A stretch of DNA of 64,000 bases, taken from assembly GCF_014905135.1 (NCBI RefSeq), contig NZ_CP041406.1:1488001-1552000 (forward strand). Direction: 5' to 3'. Positions within the stretch are counted from its first letter, which is position 1. Each line of letters begins with the position of its first letter. Both the position numbers and the translations under genes were made by a program. Positions 23,270 to 33,356 of this stretch are shown here, piece by piece. Source of the DNA: Sulfurimonas paralvinellae (GTDB taxonomy: Bacteria; Campylobacterota; Campylobacteria; Campylobacterales; Sulfurimonadaceae). The notes under the pieces are model-generated. The model was not told the DNA's origin. It was given only the letters and a program-made list of their open reading frames with translations, and searched no databases.

Positions 23270-23755
23270 CTAGGCTTCTGCTGCACCACCGTCTTCGGTA
23301 AAGAACTCTCTGTAAACTTTTTCAAAATACTTTTTAGCATTCTCAGTTTTTTGAATCTTTGCATCAAAGATCTCTTTTGTCGCAGGATATTTTTCACTGT
23401 ATTCTTTATATATTGCACATTTCATATCCATATTTTGAGAAAATTGATCGATAACAGCACGGAAATCTTCCGGTGTTGCAACCCACTGCATAAATTTTTG
23501 AAACATTCTCTCTCTGACATCGATAGCAAAAGACTCATCAAGCTGCTGTGCCATACGTTTGAGATCCCAGCGTGAGAAATAGACACCGCTCTTCACCGGC
23601 GGCATAATTTCAGCATAGATAGCTTTGAGATAATCCGGATAGTCTTCAGGAGCATCCATTTCACAACTACCGTCAGCACAAGCCTGATCAATCATTACCT
23701 GTTGCTGCATCTGCTCAAATTCACTTCGTAATTCGTTTAAATCTTTCATATCCAT
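23270..23755 (-). CDS. Unknown protein, last gene of the molybdoenzyme operon
   Basis: A 161-aa soluble, mostly helical acidic protein with a cysteine pair in QACADGSCEMD (residues 25-35) and a further Cys in MKCAIYKEY. Family not recognised. Length, acidity and helical content recall small molybdoenzyme chaperones, but I see no TorD motif. GAGGAAAGAATATT precedes its ATG. It has no counterpart in standard psr/soe/ttr operons known to me. Confidence 0.75.
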   Translation of the reverse strand: MDMKDLNELRSEFEQMQQQVMIDQACADGSCEMDAPEDYPDYLKAIYAEIMPPVKSGVYFSRWDLKRMAQQLDESFAIDVRERMFQKFMQWVATPEDFRAVIDQFSQNMDMKCAIYKEYSEKYPATKEIFDAKIQKTENAKKYFEKVYREFFTEDGGAAEA

Positions 23756-23768
23756 AATATTCTTTCCT

Positions 23769-24194
23769 CTACTTTATAAATTGATTATATATCTCTTGTG
23801 CCAATGCTTCACCCTCAAGTGTGCCATTTTTTTCAAGATAGGTTCCGATGAGTTTCTCACCATCACGCACGACAAAGTCACACTTGTTATAGACCTGAAC
23901 AAACTCATCCGCTTCATCAAGAAGCTCAATGGCACTCTCTTGGTATTCTGGTGCTATATAGGCACCGTTTACATGTGATTTTTTCATATTTGACAATGTA
24001 AAATAAAAATCATCCTCACGTATGTTCATAGGTATCATCATAGCATCATCTCCTGATGCTTTGACAAGCTTGTTGAGCATTACAAAGAGTCTGTTCGGAC
24101 TTGCATGTTCTGCAATAAGACCAAAAAGTTTTGTCTGTTTTTGAATCTGATCATCAGCATTCATCGTTTGTGGTGCTTCTATATTTTCACTCAT
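23769..24194 (-). CDS. Stand-alone domain resembling the shikimate dehydrogenase N-terminus
   Basis: A 141-aa protein. The order KLFGLIAEHASPNRLFVML, then DDAMMIPMNIREDDFYFTL, VNGAYIAPEYQESAIELLDE and DFVVRDGEKLIGTYLE follows the substrate-binding domain of AroE (GLIGNP...SLSP, NVTIPHK, AVNTVV.DG.L.GYNTDG). The catalytic Lys of NVTxPHK is not conserved, and there is no NAD(P) domain, so it is not an AroE enzyme. The start at 24194 overlaps the ferredoxin stop (ATGA) and has GGGGGATAAA upstream; a longer frame to 24248 is rejected. The resemblance is my inference by eye. Confidence 0.6.
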   Translation of the reverse strand: MSENIEAPQTMNADDQIQKQTKLFGLIAEHASPNRLFVMLNKLVKASGDDAMMIPMNIREDDFYFTLSNMKKSHVNGAYIAPEYQESAIELLDEADEFVQVYNKCDFVVRDGEKLIGTYLEKNGTLEGEALAQEIYNQFIK

Positions 24195-25294
24195 TTTATC
24201 CCCCATAGCTCTCGTGCTTCTTCCTCTTCTATCTTGCATCTTTGACATAAAACCTCACCGCCTTTGTACGCAAAGAAATTCCCGCATTCATCACACCGTT
24301 TAATACTAAAACGTGCCAGCGTCTCGATCTTTGGTTCAAAAAAGCTCTCCAATGCAAATGTCGGTCGCAGTGTCAAGGAATCCGGTTCACACACATCGTG
24401 GCAAGAGTGACACTGAACACATGCAAGCGGATTGAAATTTATTACACTGTTTTTTCCATCAGAAGAGAGTGCGCCTGTAGGACAGATTCTGTAACACATT
24501 TGACAATTCGTACATGTCGTCTCATCCAAATCTTTTTGCGAAATAAAAGAGATATCGTTGATATCAATGTTATGAAAGATCTCAGGCACACTTGCTCGTT
24601 TCATAGCCATCAGCAAAAGACTTCTTCTGTCGGGAATATTTTTTTGCTTTATTTTAGCGATATCCGCATTCGTGACCGTATGAACTTTTTCAATATCTTC
24701 ACTTGCGGCAACTTCATTTTCAAACTGCTGCTTGATAGATACCGCTTTTTTAAGTCCCTCTTTTGAAAGCAGTTCTCTTCTGCTCATTAACGCTTCACCG
24801 CTACTAGGCTCAGAGACACTCTCTACTTCTTGAAGGAGTATACTTTTATTCTGTTGCATTGCTTCAAGCAGAAAGTTAACCTCTTCTATGCGCTCTTCGA
24901 TGATCGGCAGGTTTTTTGCACCGATCTCGCAGTTTTTACATCCGCCTATATCGGCAGTGAGCTGCTCGTTTGCAATCAAAGCCATACTTAAAAGCTCTTC
25001 TGCACTCAAAGCAGCGATACACGGAAGTTCTGTTTTACAAGAGATGAGCTGCTCATCATTTTCTAAAAAACTAAACACATAATTAATAGGCTTAAAATCA
25101 TCCAATGAGTAAGCAGCTGTAGGGCATACTGCTCCACAACCACCGCATCCTACACATTCACTCGGCACAAAAGAGACAACACCTTCAGTTATCTTGATAG
25201 TCTCAACGGGACATACTTCAACACATTTGTTACATATTGCAAACTTGTTTGATGTATGCACACATTTTGAAACATCTAAGCTAAGGAGACTCAT
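24191..25294 (-). CDS. Polyferredoxin with four Cys clusters and a C-terminal zinc ribbon
   Basis: A 367-aa cytoplasmic iron-sulfur protein. 4Fe-4S motifs: CNKCVEVCP (about residue 21), CVGCGGCGAVCP (about 47), CTNCQMCYRICP (about 262) and CVQCHSCHDVCE (about 292). The tail CDECGNFF ... LCQRC (about 335-355) looks like a rubredoxin/zinc ribbon. The middle holds a Cys pair in GGCKNCEIG and coiled-coil-like helices. Similar genes accompany Campylobacterota molybdoenzyme operons. It overlaps both neighbours by four bases. Likely electron donor in maturation or an electron shuttle; not proven. Confidence 0.9.
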   Translation of the reverse strand: MSLLSLDVSKCVHTSNKFAICNKCVEVCPVETIKITEGVVSFVPSECVGCGGCGAVCPTAAYSLDDFKPINYVFSFLENDEQLISCKTELPCIAALSAEELLSMALIANEQLTADIGGCKNCEIGAKNLPIIEERIEEVNFLLEAMQQNKSILLQEVESVSEPSSGEALMSRRELLSKEGLKKAVSIKQQFENEVAASEDIEKVHTVTNADIAKIKQKNIPDRRSLLLMAMKRASVPEIFHNIDINDISFISQKDLDETTCTNCQMCYRICPTGALSSDGKNSVINFNPLACVQCHSCHDVCEPDSLTLRPTFALESFFEPKIETLARFSIKRCDECGNFFAYKGGEVLCQRCKIEEEEARELWGIK

Positions 25295-25941
25295 GCGTTA
25301 TAGTTATACTCGTTTTCTTTAAGCGCTGTAAGGTATTCAAAATCACTCATAATGAATTCCAACGCCAAATCCGCAAGATCATAATAGAATGCCGTTCCTG
25401 CCTCATTTTTAACATTCAAAAGATACATCGGTGCCCACTCCAAAATATGGTCTTTCATAAAACCGTATTGCAGTTGCGAGAGCTGTTTTGCCAATTCCAT
25501 GTCATCATCTTCAAGCGCTTTTAGTTCTGCACGACAAAGTTCATACATAAATTCTAATTCAATCCCGATATGATCCGCGGCCATTACACGAGCCTTGTCA
25601 AGTTCGACTTTAAATTCAAAAGCATTAAAAATGGCCTGTACAGGGTTTTCACCACCTGTTTCCATCATTTGATCTTCTCTTGTATAAAAAGACTCATACG
25701 GAATAAGATGGAGTAAAAAAAGGTTAGTAAAATCAACATTGAGATATCTCTCTATCAACTCTTTTCTGTCATACTCTTCTCTTTTTTTCCATGTTGCATA
25801 TGTTGGGAAAAAAGAGAGCATGTTTTGATCGTCTTCTATTGATTTTAATAGCCCTTCATCAACTTCGCCTATCATCAGTCTAGAGATTAAAGCATATATA
25901 TTTATACGAGCATTTTGCTGTTGTTTTAAATCATTGTTCAT
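25291..25941 (-). CDS. TorD-family molybdoenzyme chaperone
   Basis: All-helical chaperone that keeps the Tat-exported catalytic subunit unfolded until cofactor is inserted. Typical features: N-terminal YALISRLMIGEVDE, the central EDQMMETGGENPVQAIF, and DHIGIELEFMYELC with the TorD E-x-D/H-H-(I/L) region followed by DHILEWAPMYLLNV. 216 aa is normal. Separated from the catalytic gene by a 16-bp hairpin (25977-26012). Confidence 0.92.
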   Translation of the reverse strand: MNNDLKQQQNARINIYALISRLMIGEVDEGLLKSIEDDQNMLSFFPTYATWKKREEYDRKELIERYLNVDFTNLFLLHLIPYESFYTREDQMMETGGENPVQAIFNAFEFKVELDKARVMAADHIGIELEFMYELCRAELKALEDDDMELAKQLSQLQYGFMKDHILEWAPMYLLNVKNEAGTAFYYDLADLALEFIMSDFEYLTALKENEYNYNA

Positions 25942-26016: not shown

Positions 26017-29000
26017 TTAAACGTCTTTAATCTCAACTTTGTAAGCTTTTTGACTTGGTTTAACCGGACGTTTAATGTGGTATGGACGACGCCATTTATC
26101 ACCTGGAGCAAGTGGACGAGTCAATTGATCTCTCCATGCTTGATAAACTTTAAAGTTATTCTCATAATTCACAGAGATATCACCGATTTTTTCATCAGCG
26201 CCTGCTTTTGTGATTACAACTTTTTGGTGCCAACCGTGATTACCCGCAATTGGATCCGGATGACAAGGTGCTACAGCATTTTGCCATGAACCTGAAAGTC
26301 CGTCCCACCAGATATCATCGATATCTCTGTTGTATTCAGCAAACTGCCAAATTTCACGTTTTTTCATCGCTTCGATGCCTTCTTTAGGTTTCATAGTACC
26401 AACTTTACCGTCATTCGTCATTTCATAAAGTGGAGCACCAAGACCCATTACACCAAGTTGATGCTCAAATCCTGGGATTTTAACAGCATCTTTAAGTTTC
26501 CAACGACCGGCATGGTGTGAACATGCAAGAACACCAGGACGAGTTGCTTCAGTAGGTACAGCCATCGCGATAAAGTAACCGCTTTCAATACCTGAAAGTG
26601 TATCAACAATCTGAACTTTGATCGCATCACCACGTTTGATACCAAGTTTCTCAGCATCTTTTGTATAGATCCAAACCGGGTTATGGTTTTGAGAGATCTC
26701 CATAAGGTGCTTAGAGTTAACCGAACGAGTGTGAATATTATATGGAAGACGATAAATCGTGTTGAGTGCGAACTCATTATCTGCTTTCATATGTTTATGG
26801 TGAACCTGTGTTACCAGGTGAACCATTTTATCGTTCTCTTTTTCATTTCTTGGATAAACTGGAATAGCATATTCCGGCCATTTCCACTCTTCAGCCAACC
26901 ACTCAGAGAAGAACTCAAGTTTTTTACTGAGTGTATGGAAACCATCTAAGAGCTTATCATCTTTAATGATACCTATTGATTTTTTCAACTCACCGTCTTT
27001 AACCCATAGTGCACCGAATTGATCTTTTTCGATCTCACTTTTATGGTATTTATGGCCGTGAGCATGTACGTAATCACCTTCGATTTCCATCTCTTCTTCT
27101 TGAGGTTTATATACGTTTGTTTTTTCAGTCCATGCACCATGATCTCTAATGTATGCATATACAGGGAATTCTTCGCCTTTGTACATTTTTGTTGCAGTCT
27201 CTTTCAATCTTGGAAGAAGAGAAAGTGCAGCATCAAAATACTCAGGTACTGTTACAGCACGTGATGGATCTTTTTTACTTGCCCAGTATTTTCTAATACC
27301 AAGGCTTCCATCTGGATCCACATAGTTAACAATGAGATTTGGCCAGAATTCACTCTCTTCCCAAACTTCACCAAGACCATACTTCATATGCGCTTCTAGT
27401 GTAGCACGTGTTGGATCTTTTGGTTTCCATCCGGCTTTTTCCGCTGCAACACGAAGTACCGCTTGACGGAACTCAATACGCTGCTCAGGTTTAGAAGGAG
27501 TTGATTGTTGGTCATTACGCTCACCAGCAAGTCCAACCGGAAGTACATAATCACAGTACCAGTTTGTCTCAGACCATGTTGGAGACAAGTTAAATGACAA
27601 TTCAAATTTATCTTCACGTTTAAGTGCTTCTATCCATCTGAAACCATCCGGATTGATCCATAGAGGATTATGCATTCTTGGAACATAAACAGCCATTGAC
27701 TTAGGAATTTTTAGTCCACGCTTTGTCCACTTCGCATGCCATTCGTCATCCATCATAATTTGAGGCATCATATAACCCATTTCATATGAAGAGAGTGGAT
27801 ATTCAGGTGGCCAAGCGATTTCATTCCATACATCAGTTTTACCTGGGTGTTTACCTGCAACTGTCGCTTTATCACCTTTACCTGCTACAGAGATCTCATG
27901 CCAGTGGTGCATACCTACTCCACCAATATCTCCACGCATAGCTCCAACAAGAGTAAGCGGTAAGAAACCTGCACGAGTATTCATCCAACCACCACGGTGA
28001 CCAATCGGTCCTGCACGCCAAAGGTATGTTGCTATTTTTGCACCGGCAGGAACAAACATTTCCCATAATTGGTCAAGCTTATACTCCATACCTTCAAGTT
28101 TACACTCTTTTACAACAAACTCTTTCGTATATGGTGCATAGAGTTCTTTTGCCAGTTCAAGGAAAGACTCATAGCTTTCATCTTTCGGCATTTTAGATAT
28201 ATAACCATATCCGATCATCTTTTTAAGATAATCTTTGTTTGCCATTAATCTATCCCAGTTAACCCATTCTCTTACGAAATCATGGTTAACGATATCTGCA
28301 CCGTCTTTTTTCTTCTCATTTAAGATGCGATTTGTCAGGTAGAGGTAAAGTGCTGCCTCAGTACCTGGCCAACATGGAATCCATAAGTCCGCCATACCAG
28401 CTGAGTTAGACATACGAGGATCAATAACAATCATTTTTGCACCACGTTTACGTGCATCAGCAATCAAACCTGCTGATTGTTGGAAGTAGTGACCAGCGTC
28501 TGCTGCGTGAGACGATTGTAAGAAAATCAGATCAGCATTACCCCAATCCGGTGAGTTTCTATCATCATTCGCCCATTGAATAGTACCTTGACGTGCACCT
28601 GCAGAACAGATGTTTGTATGAGAGTTGTATCCATCAATTCCAAGAGACTGTGGTACACGAGGACCGAAACCGTTCTCATTTGGACGACCAACGTGATACA
28701 TGATAGATTTTTTAGAAATCTCATCACCTTTAGCAAGTGTATCGTGCATTTTCTTACCGATTTCAGCCATTGCTTCATCCCAAGTTACACGAACCCATTT
28801 ACCTTCACCACGTTTAGAACCCGGTGCACGTTTAATTGGGAATGGAATACGATCTGGATCGTACATTTGAGAAGTAACCGCGTAACCTTTTGCACAGTTT
28901 CTACCACGAGAACCTGTATGTAATGGGTTACCCATATGTTTTCTTACTGTCATAGTTTCTTTATCAACCCATGCAGTCAGACCACAACCCGCTTCACAGT

Positions 29001-29301
29001 TTGAGCAGACTGTAGGAACGATTGTATAATCGTTTACCTTGATACCGTCCGGATTTTCAGCTGAACGAACGCCATGACGTTCGATACCACCACGTTTCCA
29101 GTCTGTTCCGTCAAGCTCTTTAAAGCTATCCCACTCTTTTACGTCAGGATAAAATGATAGCGTATCAGGAGTGTTTGTAAACTTTGAATCTGTTACAGAC
29201 TCTGCAACAGCGTCAGTCTCAAACACACCCTTTGCGATAGCTACACCAGCAACGCTAAATGCAGCACCTTTTAAAAATGTTCTTCTACTTTGTAAATACA
29301 T
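26017..29301 (-). CDS. Tat-exported molybdopterin oxidoreductase, catalytic subunit
   Basis: A 1,094-aa member of the DMSO reductase family. Twin-arginine signal SRRTFLKGAAF (residues 5-15); 4Fe-4S motif Cys99-x2-Cys102-x3-Cys106 with Cys136; the molybdenum ligand is probably Cys232 in NICSAGAR, as in the polysulfide/arsenate/sulfite group rather than Asp (nitrate reductase NarG) or Ser (DMSO reductase). The C-terminal molybdopterin-binding domain includes HSRHxx-like 'IHTRSVNSKHLMEISQNHNPVW'-region residues. It is much longer than PsrA (about 765 aa), nearer to SoeA or TtrA. Substrate cannot be assigned from sequence alone. It works with the following Fe-S and NrfD-like subunits on the periplasmic side. 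Confidence 0.9.
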   Translation of the reverse strand: MYLQSRRTFLKGAAFSVAGVAIAKGVFETDAVAESVTDSKFTNTPDTLSFYPDVKEWDSFKELDGTDWKRGGIERHGVRSAENPDGIKVNDYTIVPTVCSNCEAGCGLTAWVDKETMTVRKHMGNPLHTGSRGRNCAKGYAVTSQMYDPDRIPFPIKRAPGSKRGEGKWVRVTWDEAMAEIGKKMHDTLAKGDEISKKSIMYHVGRPNENGFGPRVPQSLGIDGYNSHTNICSAGARQGTIQWANDDRNSPDWGNADLIFLQSSHAADAGHYFQQSAGLIADARKRGAKMIVIDPRMSNSAGMADLWIPCWPGTEAALYLYLTNRILNEKKKDGADIVNHDFVREWVNWDRLMANKDYLKKMIGYGYISKMPKDESYESFLELAKELYAPYTKEFVVKECKLEGMEYKLDQLWEMFVPAGAKIATYLWRAGPIGHRGGWMNTRAGFLPLTLVGAMRGDIGGVGMHHWHEISVAGKGDKATVAGKHPGKTDVWNEIAWPPEYPLSSYEMGYMMPQIMMDDEWHAKWTKRGLKIPKSMAVYVPRMHNPLWINPDGFRWIEALKREDKFELSFNLSPTWSETNWYCDYVLPVGLAGERNDQQSTPSKPEQRIEFRQAVLRVAAEKAGWKPKDPTRATLEAHMKYGLGEVWEESEFWPNLIVNYVDPDGSLGIRKYWASKKDPSRAVTVPEYFDAALSLLPRLKETATKMYKGEEFPVYAYIRDHGAWTEKTNVYKPQEEEMEIEGDYVHAHGHKYHKSEIEKDQFGALWVKDGELKKSIGIIKDDKLLDGFHTLSKKLEFFSEWLAEEWKWPEYAIPVYPRNEKENDKMVHLVTQVHHKHMKADNEFALNTIYRLPYNIHTRSVNSKHLMEISQNHNPVWIYTKDAEKLGIKRGDAIKVQIVDTLSGIESGYFIAMAVPTEATRPGVLACSHHAGRWKLKDAVKIPGFEHQLGVMGLGAPLYEMTNDGKVGTMKPKEGIEAMKKREIWQFAEYNRDIDDIWWDGLSGSWQNAVAPCHPDPIAGNHGWHQKVVITKAGADEKIGDISVNYENNFKVYQAWRDQLTRPLAPGDKWRRPYHIKRPVKPSQKAYKVEIKDV

Positions 29302-29314
29302 TTATACTTTCTCC

Positions 29315-30214
29315 TTAACTTAGTGGTAATAATTGTGGAATTACCAGCCAAACATGTTTAACTACCCACAGACCTACGATTGCTAAAATAGAAGCAAGAC
29401 TTAACATACTACTACTTTTACTTACTCTAGCAAGAGCTACTAACAACATTGGCAAGATATAAGCAACCCATTGTCCAATCCAGAACATTGTTGCATATTC
29501 ACCGTCACCTTTTACATAGTGTAAGATAGCAGCAACTTCTTCAGCTTTCATTGCACCGAAGATATACTCTGACATATAGATGATAAATGCCATCAATGCA
29601 CTTAGACCTAAAATTGCACCAAAGAATTGTTTTGTCTCATCACTGAGTTTTGAACCGCCAAGTAAAATAATTGCTGCAGAACCACTTAAAGTCGCTGCTA
29701 AAATCATTTGTACTGATTCTGTCGGCATCTGCCACAATTCACGTGCAGTTGATTCTGCCATAATTCCTGCAGTATACAATGTAACAGGAATAGCAAGTAG
29801 TGTTACCCAGAAAAGAAGTTTATCAAAAGCTTCCGTTTGTTTTTTGAAGCCAAGAATAATCATTAAAAATTCTAAACCTACAAAAACCGTTGCCATCCAT
29901 GCACCAACTGTAATTGCCGATGTCCAGTGAGGATAAAAGAAGATATGCCACATTCTAAACGGTTGATGTAAATCAGCAAGAGTAAAAAGTAAGAAAATAT
30001 TCATAAAAATAAATGAAACGATAAGTGTTGAAGTTCTCAGACCTTTCATCTCATCAGGATTTTTTCTTAATAATAAGAAAAGCATAAATACTAAACCAGT
30101 ACCGATACTTTTCGCCCACATATTCATTGTAACGAACCAGCCCCAAAATACGTCTGGTAAAGCTACATCCAAAGTTACTACTGCATGTGTTGCAGCTAAA
30201 GATTCATGTACCAT
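29315..30214 (-). CDS. NrfD/PsrC-type membrane subunit
   Basis: A 299-aa integral membrane protein with about eight hydrophobic helices, e.g. WGWFVTMNMWAKSIGTGLVF (near residue 25) and HIFFYPHWTSAITVGAWMAT (near 89). These match the NrfD family, which exchanges electrons with the quinone pool without haem. It anchors the Fe-S and catalytic subunits. One-base overlap (TAATG) with the Fe-S gene. Confidence 0.92.
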   Translation of the reverse strand: MVHESLAATHAVVTLDVALPDVFWGWFVTMNMWAKSIGTGLVFMLFLLLRKNPDEMKGLRTSTLIVSFIFMNIFLLFTLADLHQPFRMWHIFFYPHWTSAITVGAWMATVFVGLEFLMIILGFKKQTEAFDKLLFWVTLLAIPVTLYTAGIMAESTARELWQMPTESVQMILAATLSGSAAIILLGGSKLSDETKQFFGAILGLSALMAFIIYMSEYIFGAMKAEEVAAILHYVKGDGEYATMFWIGQWVAYILPMLLVALARVSKSSSMLSLASILAIVGLWVVKHVWLVIPQLLPLS

Positions 30215-30849
30215 TAGTGATGCCCTCCTAGTGGAAGATGTGTAATATTGTTGAACAGGTTATAACCTTCTTCTCTTTCAGACGCAAGAGGATTCAGGTG
30301 TGCTTGAGAAGCGCCAACATAGAAGTGGTGAGGGTTCGTACCCTTCTCTGGTTTACGAACTTGAACATCTCTGTTATCTTGAATATATTTAGAAATATTT
30401 GAAGTTGGATCATCAAGGTCACCAAAGATATTTGCTTCAACAGGACATGCAACAACACAAGCAGGCATCATAGATGATGCAATACGGTGCGCACAGTATG
30501 TACACTTGTCAGCAGTTTGTGTTTCAGGGTCAATATAGATAGCACCATACGGACAAGCCATAACACAACCGGCACAACCGATACATCGCTCTTTATCAAT
30601 ATTAACAATTCCGTTTTCAATATAGTGAAGAGCAGATACCGGACAGATTCTTTCACACGGAGCATTCTCACAGTGATTACATCTCAGCGGTGTAAATGTT
30701 CTTTTTGTTTCTGGGAATGTTCCCACATCTACATATTTGACACGAAGTCTCCATGTACTAAGCGGAACTTCATTTTCCACTTTACATGCGATCTCACAAC
30801 CTTTACATCCCATACAAAGATGTAAATCAACTAGGAAACCTAATTGCAT
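30214..30849 (-). CDS. Four-cluster iron-sulfur electron-transfer subunit
   Basis: A 211-aa PsrB/DmsB-like subunit. Cys groups CMGCKGCEIACK, CNHCENAPCERICP, CIGCAGCVMACPYG and CTYCAHRIAS...CVVACP give four 4Fe-4S clusters, wiring the catalytic subunit to the membrane subunit. The ATG at 30849 with AAAGGAGAATAT upstream is preferred over a TTG 18 bases earlier. First gene of the seven-gene operon. Confidence 0.94.
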   Translation of the reverse strand: MQLGFLVDLHLCMGCKGCEIACKVENEVPLSTWRLRVKYVDVGTFPETKRTFTPLRCNHCENAPCERICPVSALHYIENGIVNIDKERCIGCAGCVMACPYGAIYIDPETQTADKCTYCAHRIASSMMPACVVACPVEANIFGDLDDPTSNISKYIQDNRDVQVRKPEKGTNPHHFYVGASQAHLNPLASEREEGYNLFNNITHLPLGGHH

Positions 30850-31118
30850 ATATTCTCCTTTGGCCAATTTTGGCTTAATTAAGATTTATAACTACGACTT
30901 ATTAACATTAAAAGAAGCCCTTATGCACGGCATTTCGAGCTTTTTTTACTGTGTTTATATTAACCAACAAAGCTTAAAGAAGTAATAAATAAGTGATATT
31001 TTTGTAATAAAATTTAAGAGGTGTGTATATTTAAAAAACTGATATTTTAAATATTTATCAATTGCATAATAAAAGAAAATACTATAGGAAATTTTAAGAA
31101 AGAGGTAAAATCTCTTTC
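30850..31118. other. Intergenic region upstream of the molybdoenzyme operon
   Basis: This 269-base gap contains the operon's ribosome-binding site, the palindrome CTTAATTAAG near 30873, and at its right end a perfect 9-bp hairpin after hisD. Apart from a TATAAA-like stretch about 40 bases before the start I see no clear promoter. No ORF or RNA gene was found. Confidence 0.45.
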
Positions 31119-31120
31119 TT
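31096..31120 (-). terminator. Hairpin at the hisD stop
   Basis: AAGAAAGAG, seven-base loop, CTCTTTCTT, perfect, overlapping the hisD stop. An A/U-rich tail follows. Probably the terminator of the hemerythrin-to-hisD gene run. Confidence 0.55.
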
Positions 31121-32411
31121 ATTTGGTTAAACGAACTCTTACTGACTGTTCGTGTGCAGTCAAGCCTTCAGTGTTGGCAATAAGTGCACACTCTTCGCCT
31201 ATCTCGTTTATAGCTGCAGAGCTAAAAGAGATGATGGAACTTTTTTTCATAAAATCTTCTACACCGAGCGGTGAATAGAATTTTGCGGTTCCTCCTGTTG
31301 GGAGTGTATGATTTGGGCCTGCGACATAATCACCGATGGCTTCAGGCGTATTGTGCCCTAAAAAGATCGCTCCGGCATGTTTGATGTACGGTAACAGTTC
31401 AAACGGACTCATTGTAGCTACTTCCAAGTGTTCAGGAGCTATCTCGTTCATGAGGCTTACCGCTGCATCCATATCTTTTGTTACAATAATGGCACCGCGT
31501 TCTTCGATCGATTTTCTGGCGATTGCCTCACGCGGCAGTTTTTGCAGCCAATTTTCTATCTCTTTTTCTACAGCATCGGCTAACTTTTGCGATGGTGTTA
31601 TTAAAATTGAACTTGCCATCTCATCATGCTCAGCCTGTGAAAGCAGATCAATTGCCATGTGTGAAGGATTAGCACTGTCATCGGCAAGTATTCCGATCTC
31701 ACTAGGTCCTGCTATCATGTCAATATTGACATCACCGAAGACCATCTTTTTTGCAGTCGCAACAAAGATATTTCCCGGTCCCGTAACAACATCGACCTTA
31801 GGAATATTTTGAGTCCCATAAGCCATCGCGGCTATTGCCGATGCGCCCCCTACTTTGTAAACCTGATCGACACCGCAAAGGTGACATGCAGCTAAAAGAA
31901 GCTCGTTTGGTTCATTGTCAGGTGTCGGCGTACAGACAACAATGTTCTCAACACCCGCAACCTGCGCAGGAATAACATTCATTAAAAGTGATGACGGGTA
32001 AGCCGCTTTCCCACCTGGAATATAAAGCCCTGCACTATCGACAGGCGTCACTTTTTGCCCTAAAATAGTCCCGTTTGCTTCTGTGTCGAACCATGATTTT
32101 GGTTTTTGTTTTTCATGATAGAGTTTAATTCTCTCATATGCCAAATGAAGTGAATCTTTGAGTGCTTTATCAAGATTGTCATAGGCTTTGCTCATAGACT
32201 CCTGAGAAATTTTCAAATCATCATCATTTTTCGGCGTCCAATTGTCAAACTTTGCAATGTGTTCAAAAAGCGCCTTATTCTTATTTGCTTTTATCTCATC
32301 TATAATGCCGCCTACTATACTTGAAACATAAGCAATATCCATCTTTCCACGACCTAAAAGCTCTTGGAAATTCTCATTGAAATCAGTGTCAGTTGATTTT
32401 ATAAATATCAT
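31119..32411 (-). CDS. hisD: Histidinol dehydrogenase
   Basis: Last two oxidations of histidine synthesis, histidinol to histidine with two NAD+, zinc-dependent. Signatures: DSAGLYIPGGKAAYPSSLLM near residue 122, VVTGPGNIFVATAKK near 209, the active SQAEHDEMASS near 259, and APEHLEV. 430 aa, complete. One-base overlap with the thioredoxin-like gene upstream. Confidence 0.98.
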   Translation of the reverse strand: MIFIKSTDTDFNENFQELLGRGKMDIAYVSSIVGGIIDEIKANKNKALFEHIAKFDNWTPKNDDDLKISQESMSKAYDNLDKALKDSLHLAYERIKLYHEKQKPKSWFDTEANGTILGQKVTPVDSAGLYIPGGKAAYPSSLLMNVIPAQVAGVENIVVCTPTPDNEPNELLLAACHLCGVDQVYKVGGASAIAAMAYGTQNIPKVDVVTGPGNIFVATAKKMVFGDVNIDMIAGPSEIGILADDSANPSHMAIDLLSQAEHDEMASSILITPSQKLADAVEKEIENWLQKLPREAIARKSIEERGAIIVTKDMDAAVSLMNEIAPEHLEVATMSPFELLPYIKHAGAIFLGHNTPEAIGDYVAGPNHTLPTGGTAKFYSPLGVEDFMKKSSIISFSSAAINEIGEECALIANTEGLTAHEQSVRVRLTK

Positions 32412-32845
32412 TATTTTTTTACTCTCTTATTATTTTTATCGAATTCACTTTTTACAATACCGAGTGCCTCTTGAAAATTCGGTGCTTGAACATAGCCTAA
32501 AAGAGGCTGATACATTGGGTCTCCGTTTGGAAACAAGAACCATATTCCCGGAAGTCCCGGTGTGTTTTGTGCCAATACCTGCGGAATGTAATCACCTTTG
32601 TCCGTCCATGAACGAATCGCTATAAAGTCTTTGTTGAGTGCGTTGACAACTTTGTCGTCTTTAAGCGTAGTGCGGTCAAGTAAAAGACAATATTTGCATG
32701 AGTGACTTGATATGATAAAAAGAACCGGTTTGTTCTCTTTTTGCGCCTGTGCAATGCCGCTTGTATAATCTTTAGCCCAATGAAGATCGGCACCAAAAAG
32801 CGCAACACTCAAAAGTGCTGTCATTATTATTATTTTTTTAAACAT
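32411..32845 (-). CDS. Secreted thioredoxin-like protein (SoxW-like)
   Basis: Signal peptide (residues 1-19), then a thioredoxin fold with a CxxC-type site SCKYCLLLD near residue 49 and the cis-Pro in TPGLPGIWFLFPNGD. 144 aa. Such proteins keep periplasmic thiols reduced; in sulfur oxidisers they often serve Sox or cytochrome maturation. Overlaps aroK by eight bases, so it is translated from the same mRNA. Confidence 0.85.
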   Translation of the reverse strand: MFKKIIIMTALLSVALFGADLHWAKDYTSGIAQAQKENKPVLFIISSHSCKYCLLLDRTTLKDDKVVNALNKDFIAIRSWTDKGDYIPQVLAQNTPGLPGIWFLFPNGDPMYQPLLGYVQAPNFQEALGIVKSEFDKNNKRVKK

Positions 32846-33356
32846 GTTTTTTTACCTTTTTAAGTAGTTCTTTTGCGCACTCTTTTGCGCTTTTGTTCGT
32901 TACGTCGATCACAACATCCGCAAGTTTGAGATACTCCGGACGCCTCTCTTCATAAAGTTTACGAGCCGCTTTCAAATCAGAAAGCAGTGGCCTTTTTTTC
33001 AATTTTTTTGTAGCATTTGGATGCTCTTTTATTCTTTTGATAATAGCATCAAAACCAGAATCAAGAAGTACAATTGTACCTATATTTTTTAAATTTTCCT
33101 GTTTATAAAACCCGCCGCCTGTTGAGATAAGCGTATTTCGCACACTTTTTTCAAGCCATTTTGCTATATGTTTTTCAAGTTTTCGGAAGTATTTTTCACC
33201 CTCTTGCTCAAAAATCGCTTTGATCTTTCTGTTTTCCATGCTCTCAATCAAGTCATCTGTATCAATGGCGATATAATCAGAGTGTTTAACAACCTCACGC
33301 GCGACACTGCCTTTGCCGACACCCATAAACCCAATTAGTACTATATTATTTTTCAT
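32838..33356 (-). CDS. aroK: Shikimate kinase
   Basis: Phosphorylates shikimate in aromatic amino acid synthesis. P-loop GFMGVGKGSVAREV has Gly-Lys-Gly-Ser instead of the common Gly-Lys-Ser/Thr order; substrate residues IDTDDLIE, a GGGF loop (STGGGFYK) and RRPEYLKLAD near the end are present. 172 aa, normal. Confidence 0.93.
   Translation of the reverse strand: MKNNIVLIGFMGVGKGSVAREVVKHSDYIAIDTDDLIESMENRKIKAIFEQEGEKYFRKLEKHIAKWLEKSVRNTLISTGGGFYKQENLKNIGTIVLLDSGFDAIIKRIKEHPNATKKLKKRPLLSDLKAARKLYEERRPEYLKLADVVIDVTNKSAKECAKELLKKVKKHV

Follow-up and report, generated by a model that had tools for sequence, protein, structure and literature searches.

A 64,000-nucleotide stretch of the Sulfurimonas paralvinellae genome (contig NZ_CP041406.1, positions 1,488,001 to 1,552,000; referred to as the window) contains a molybdoenzyme operon that includes the gene for a stand-alone protein with the ancestry and fold of the substrate domain of shikimate dehydrogenase (AroE). 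This protein, named SDN, has lost the catalytic residues of AroE, is under purifying selection, is kept across several bacterial families and is tied, by gene linkage and shared inheritance, to a single molybdoenzyme, the catalytic subunit of which is referred to as CAT. We infer with moderate confidence that SDN is a non-catalytic cytoplasmic subunit of a dedicated maturation module, which readies CAT before its export by the twin-arginine translocation (Tat) pathway.

The SDN substrate-domain protein

The open reading frame of SDN lies on the minus strand, from an ATG at 24194 to a stop codon ending at 23769, encodes 141 amino acids (aa) and is single-copy in the 2.08-Mb genome. An alternative in-frame ATG upstream at 24248 would give a protein of 159 aa; the shorter form is favoured, since the open frames of several relatives start at the same position or one codon earlier, and its start overlaps by 4 nt the end of the upstream gene for the double-ferredoxin accessory protein Fer4acc. 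The ratio of non-synonymous to synonymous changes (pN/pS) is 0.15–0.22, similar to that of the neighbouring genes, indicating that SDN is a real gene under purifying selection.

Searches with the single SDN sequence return AroE models at scores far under their curated cut-offs. The Pfam model Shikimate_dh_N (PF08501) gives E=1.2e-3 and 19.5 bits (cut-off 27), the NCBIfam AroE models give E-values down to 7.7e-6, with TIGR00507 reaching 21.2 bits (curated cut-off 200.2), and the Aquifex AroE structure 2hk9 is matched with E=0.025. When a profile of the 77-sequence SDN family is compared with solved structures, 2hk9 is found with E=9.2e-10, and the ten matches with E<0.001 are all shikimate/quinate dehydrogenases. 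The AlphaFold2 (AF2) model of SDN has a mean pLDDT of 88 and is confident from about residue 20 onward. Foldseek searches with this model (E 5e-9) place all of the top 50 matches in the AroE superfamily, including 5-ketofructose reductase, and VIA-align superposes it on AroE structures with Z 15–18 over about 120 residues (best Z 18.3, 124 residues, 2.0 Å). The likeness of SDN to AroE is thus more than chance. A first-pass annotation of this DNA had named a fold unrelated to AroE as the outcome that would refute its proposal, and structure prediction returned the AroE fold. A plasmid search with SDN matched mostly rhizobial shikimate dehydrogenases, and a PHROGs search gave nothing.

In the VIA-align superposition the SDN model, followed to residue 141, reaches AroE residues ~245–280. 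On this model, the last helix of SDN appears to overlay the C-terminal helix of AroE, as would be expected had the nucleotide domain been excised between the two. Comparisons of protein tails give z ~6 for the short forms at loci L145 and L154 against the full-length protein at L150, with 0 of 300 shuffles scoring as well, and z 4.6 for short L005 against full-length L053; for the tail of the window's SDN alone, the score is not significant.

Loss of the active site

Residues were counted in an alignment of the 77 SDN-family sequences. The catalytic pair of AroE, which we take to be Lys65/Asp102 in E. coli numbering, was placed through profile alignment and general knowledge. Lys occurs at the first position in 0/77 sequences, which mostly carry Gln or Val (Gln in the window's SDN), while Asp remains at the second in four of the 77 and is Glu in the window's SDN. 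The position of AroE Asn59 is likewise never Asn (0/77). Most of the residues that hold shikimate in AroE have been lost, and several contact positions are hydrophobic or variable. N41, by contrast, is retained in 76/77, and other residues have become newly fixed in the family: N57 and I58 (both 77/77), S73 and E83 (both 75/77), D62 (72/77) and D106 (70/77). Canonical AroEs of the same group retain the usual motifs. The NAD(P)-binding Rossmann domain is also absent from SDN, which stops at 141 aa, and the next gene, encoding the orphan protein DN161, begins 13 nt on. These results bear out the first-pass description of an AroE-like domain that lacks both the catalytic Lys and the NAD domain.

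A genuine aroE is present elsewhere in the genome (G000:C1:1280348-1281109; 214.6 bits, above the cut-off) and also in all 25 relative genomes searched. SDN is not its genome's shikimate-pathway enzyme. Upstream of the operon, a hisD gene, a thioredoxin-like gene and aroK, which encodes shikimate kinase, are found at window positions 31119-33356 on the minus strand. A role for SDN in the shikimate pathway by way of this aroK (32838-33356, ~8.6 kb off) was considered and rejected, given the real aroE elsewhere and given that aroK and its neighbours remain at CAT, away from SDN, in genomes with a relocated cassette.

One reading offered in the first-pass annotation was a repurposed small-molecule sensor. 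On this view, the former AroE cleft would recognise a different metabolite, and SDN would pass a signal to the CAT cassette or gate it. The fold is that of a ligand-binding domain, and the conserved polar residues E83, D106 and N41 lie at or near old substrate positions. We nevertheless regard a sensor as rather unlikely, as a number of the positions that contact substrate in AroE have become hydrophobic or vary, and the loci compared show no recurrent gene for a regulator or DNA-binding protein in the cassette. AroE closes its active site between its two domains, and in the SDN family the second domain has repeatedly been lost.

The operon and its accessory cassette

As the first-pass annotation had proposed, the stand-alone AroE-N-like domain sits in a molybdoenzyme operon. 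The genes run in one direction, in the following order:

30214..30867, minus strand: TtrB-like four-cluster ferredoxin subunit, 217 aa (NCBIfam TtrB 6.6e-61)
29315..30214, minus strand: NrfD-type membrane subunit, 299 aa (Pfam NrfD 1.2e-17)
26017..29301, minus strand: CAT, molybdopterin oxidoreductase catalytic subunit, 1094 aa (SRRTFLKG twin-arginine motif; conserved Cys in TNICSAG)
25291..25941, minus strand: TorD/NarJ-family chaperone, 216 aa (Pfam Nitrate_red_del 7.5e-16; NCBIfam TorD 1.9e-16)
24191..25294, minus strand: Fer4acc, double-ferredoxin accessory protein, 367 aa (C..C..C...C motifs and further CxxC pairs)
23769..24194, minus strand: SDN, AroE substrate-domain pseudoenzyme, 141 aa (open reading frame, family profile, AF2 model, residue survey)
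23270..23755, minus strand: DN161, all-helical orphan protein, 161 aa (conserved beside SDN)

The TorD and Fer4acc genes overlap by 4 nt, as do those for Fer4acc and SDN. The TorD-Fer4acc-SDN-DN161 cassette is conserved across loci, with Fer4acc beside SDN in nearly all of them. DN161 matches no known family and is retained in genomes that have lost SDN. Its AF2 model is all-helical and fairly confident (pLDDT 87.5); searches of this model with Foldseek and VIA-align found nothing convincing, and profile comparison with the sequences of solved structures was likewise negative. A sub-cut-off RhoGEF match (E=2.7e-4) was not borne out by any convincing structural match. At the C-terminal end of Fer4acc, two CxxC pairs (334/337 and 350/353) with the look of a zinc-ribbon/rubredoxin-type knuckle stand beside the Fe-S motifs.

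Paralogues of Fer4acc are also found behind another TorD in a second molybdoenzyme operon (L197 6576-7670, L199 6468-7586 and L200 6834-7895), which has a catalytic subunit of ~960 aa and a larger TtrB-like beta subunit. Because these paralogues serve the second operon without SDN or DN161, the latter two appear to be the CAT-specific parts of the cassette.

Co-inheritance with the molybdoenzyme

The distribution of SDN and CAT was compared in 397 genomes of one class, the Campylobacteria. Both are present in 78 genomes, SDN only in three, CAT only in seven and neither in 309 (Fisher 3e-70, treating genomes as independent and with no correction for shared descent). In the SDN-only genome G158 the match, a 307-aa frame with 28% identity, appears to be a normal shikimate dehydrogenase, and the other two, G198 and G388, are fragmented assemblies. 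Where both are present, they lie within 10 kb of each other in 46 genomes, on the same contig but 19 kb to 1.07 Mb apart in eight, and on different contigs in 24, so that they are separated in 32 of the 78. In the three genomes with a relocated cassette that were examined, the CAT locus keeps TtrB-NrfD-CAT, and TorD-Fer4acc-SDN-DN161 is found elsewhere; at the relocated loci L193 and L194, aroK and hisD stay beside CAT and not with the cassette. SDN thus tracks a single molybdoenzyme, CAT, in both gene linkage and inheritance. A different arrangement is seen in genome G036, in which a window-type CAT (81%; L196 5961-10452) is followed immediately by a TorD and a DN161 of its own, without ferredoxin or SDN, and the SDN-bearing cassette is on another contig; the L196 arrangement may be a replacement by transfer.

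Co-occurrence that survives relocation, together with the position of SDN beside the double ferredoxin in nearly every locus, would also suit a protein that serves the working enzyme on the cytoplasmic or membrane side, structurally or in electron transfer, for example by tethering the double ferredoxin. This is unlikely in our view, as the Tat motif is expected to put the active site of CAT in the periplasm, whereas SDN is without a signal sequence, and the TorD protein in the cassette points to maturation.

Two-domain relatives and repeated domain loss

Most SDN relatives are two-domain AroE-like proteins of ~255–300 aa, and most Sulfurimonadaceae carry a form of 250–300 aa. These full-length relatives match AroE across both domains (E down to 1.7e-19), and their C domain aligns with that of local AroEs by hhalign (2.6e-8). 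The Rossmann GxG motif is retained in only 11/52 of them, and judged from their sequences the full-length relatives are AroE-like pseudoenzymes in which the nucleotide domain is decaying. For the 250–270-aa relatives, a fusion to DN161 was also considered as the source of the C-terminal part; this was rejected, since that part is an AroE Rossmann domain in a decayed state, with DN161 encoded separately behind it. A tandem duplication of SDN, raised by a second weak match in L014 and L071, was not supported.

Some full-length members retain a GxG-type motif (family f11, genome G059), and GAGxxA-type motifs are seen in L150 (family f11) and L164. Such proteins fit the idea that SDN is still an enzyme, performing a different chemistry with a nucleotide domain borrowed from elsewhere. 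We consider this very improbable, as both members of the catalytic pair are replaced, the GxG motif is confined to the minority given above and the domain has been excised in several lineages.

The history of domain loss was read from a tree of Fer4acc proteins rooted with the Fer4acc paralogues; L080, which is truncated by a contig end, was left out of the count of short forms. On the best tree, short forms of SDN appear in four places, namely f4+f8+f13 together, L050/L005, the clade of the window's SDN and L162/L163, and the well-supported branches require three to four origins. Hence, the nucleotide domain was excised independently about four times on the best tree. In one genus (g41, family f4), the CAT operons at L157, L158 and L204 have SDN cleanly absent, and the relative G363 (L202) has it.

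Repeated domain loss, and complete loss of SDN in three genomes, could be read as signs of a decaying relic without present function. This, too, is highly improbable: the constraint on SDN is comparable to that on its neighbours, N57 and I58 are invariant throughout the family, and the gene is present in nearly all CAT-bearing genomes.

Proposed role in molybdoenzyme maturation

SDN derives from a shikimate dehydrogenase; we propose that catalysis was lost first and the nucleotide-binding domain removed later. TorD, the double ferredoxin, SDN and DN161 would form a module acting in the cytoplasm on the CAT precursor. Within this module, TorD would bind the client together with its signal peptide, Fer4acc, like NapF, would provide Fe-S clusters or reduce them, and the old AroE cleft face of SDN, with its newly invariant or near-invariant residues (N57, I58, S73, E83 and D106), may be where a partner or a portion of the client docks. 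Because its cassette also encodes TorD and a NapF-like ferredoxin, the most likely role of SDN is that of a docking or adaptor subunit for the CAT precursor in the cytoplasm, ahead of Tat export.

Several observations weigh against a maturation role. Co-inheritance would also be expected of a regulator or of a protein acting in the working enzyme, and the genome counts share ancestry and are not phylogenetically independent. Also, SDN is fully absent from G138, G249 and G250, in which Fer4acc and DN161 directly adjoin; since these genomes keep CAT, TorD, the ferredoxin and DN161, SDN is not indispensable.

The first-pass annotation had offered a molybdenum cofactor-related chaperone as one possibility. 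The chaperone part gains support from a TorD cassette that tracks one molybdoenzyme even when the genes are far apart; a direct connection to the molybdenum cofactor itself is putative. A more far-reaching proposal, which we put forward tentatively and consider doubtful, is that the AroE-derived pseudoenzyme is a maturation factor of a structurally new class and would form, with DN161, an assembly complex delivering or gating the cofactor or an Fe-S cluster of one respiratory enzyme, the nucleotide domain having been shed in about four lineages as only the docking face mattered.

Comparison with known systems

SDN shares with AroE (PF08501, TIGR00507) its fold, order of elements and ancestry, and retains the N41 and G117 positions, but differs from it in the absence of the nucleotide domain and of the Lys/Asp pair, in its molybdoenzyme-cassette context and in its low scores. 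The AroE-like paralogues YdiB, HI0607 and Ael1 have the same fold, and alignment of the SDN model gives Z ~17 with each of 1npd, 1npy and 3pwz; these paralogues are two-domain dehydrogenases, whereas SDN is a single-domain pseudoenzyme. The NarJ/TorD maturation proteins share with SDN the cassette and the presumed client. However, they are all-helical, in contrast to the alpha/beta AroE-type fold of SDN, which has no Nitrate_red_del match.

NapF and NapD, of which one is an Fe-S protein, assist a single Tat-exported molybdoenzyme, periplasmic nitrate reductase, from the cytoplasm, and hence provide precedents for helper proteins tied to a single exported molybdoenzyme (PMC10609526). Unlike these, SDN is derived from a metabolic enzyme. 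FdhE and FdhD are dedicated non-TorD factors of formate dehydrogenase, another molybdoenzyme (PMC10609526). No relation in sequence or fold was found between them and SDN, and their sulfur-transfer and rubredoxin features are without counterpart in SDN. Four Psr-type enzymes of Sulfurovum have been described without a Tat motif (PMC10045233); CAT has one and is not assigned here to a named Psr paralogue. Searches of open-access full-text literature turned up no description of an AroE-derived molybdoenzyme component, in agreement with the first-pass view that no such component had been described.

If the proposed role is correct, the fold of a metabolic enzyme would have been co-opted for the assembly of a respiratory one, and the stages of this change would be visible in living relatives, from two-domain proteins with an intact-looking motif, through two-domain proteins with a decayed motif and the single domain, to complete loss. 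It would also provide a defined four-gene set for a widespread, uncharacterised molybdoenzyme of sulfur-metabolising Campylobacterota.
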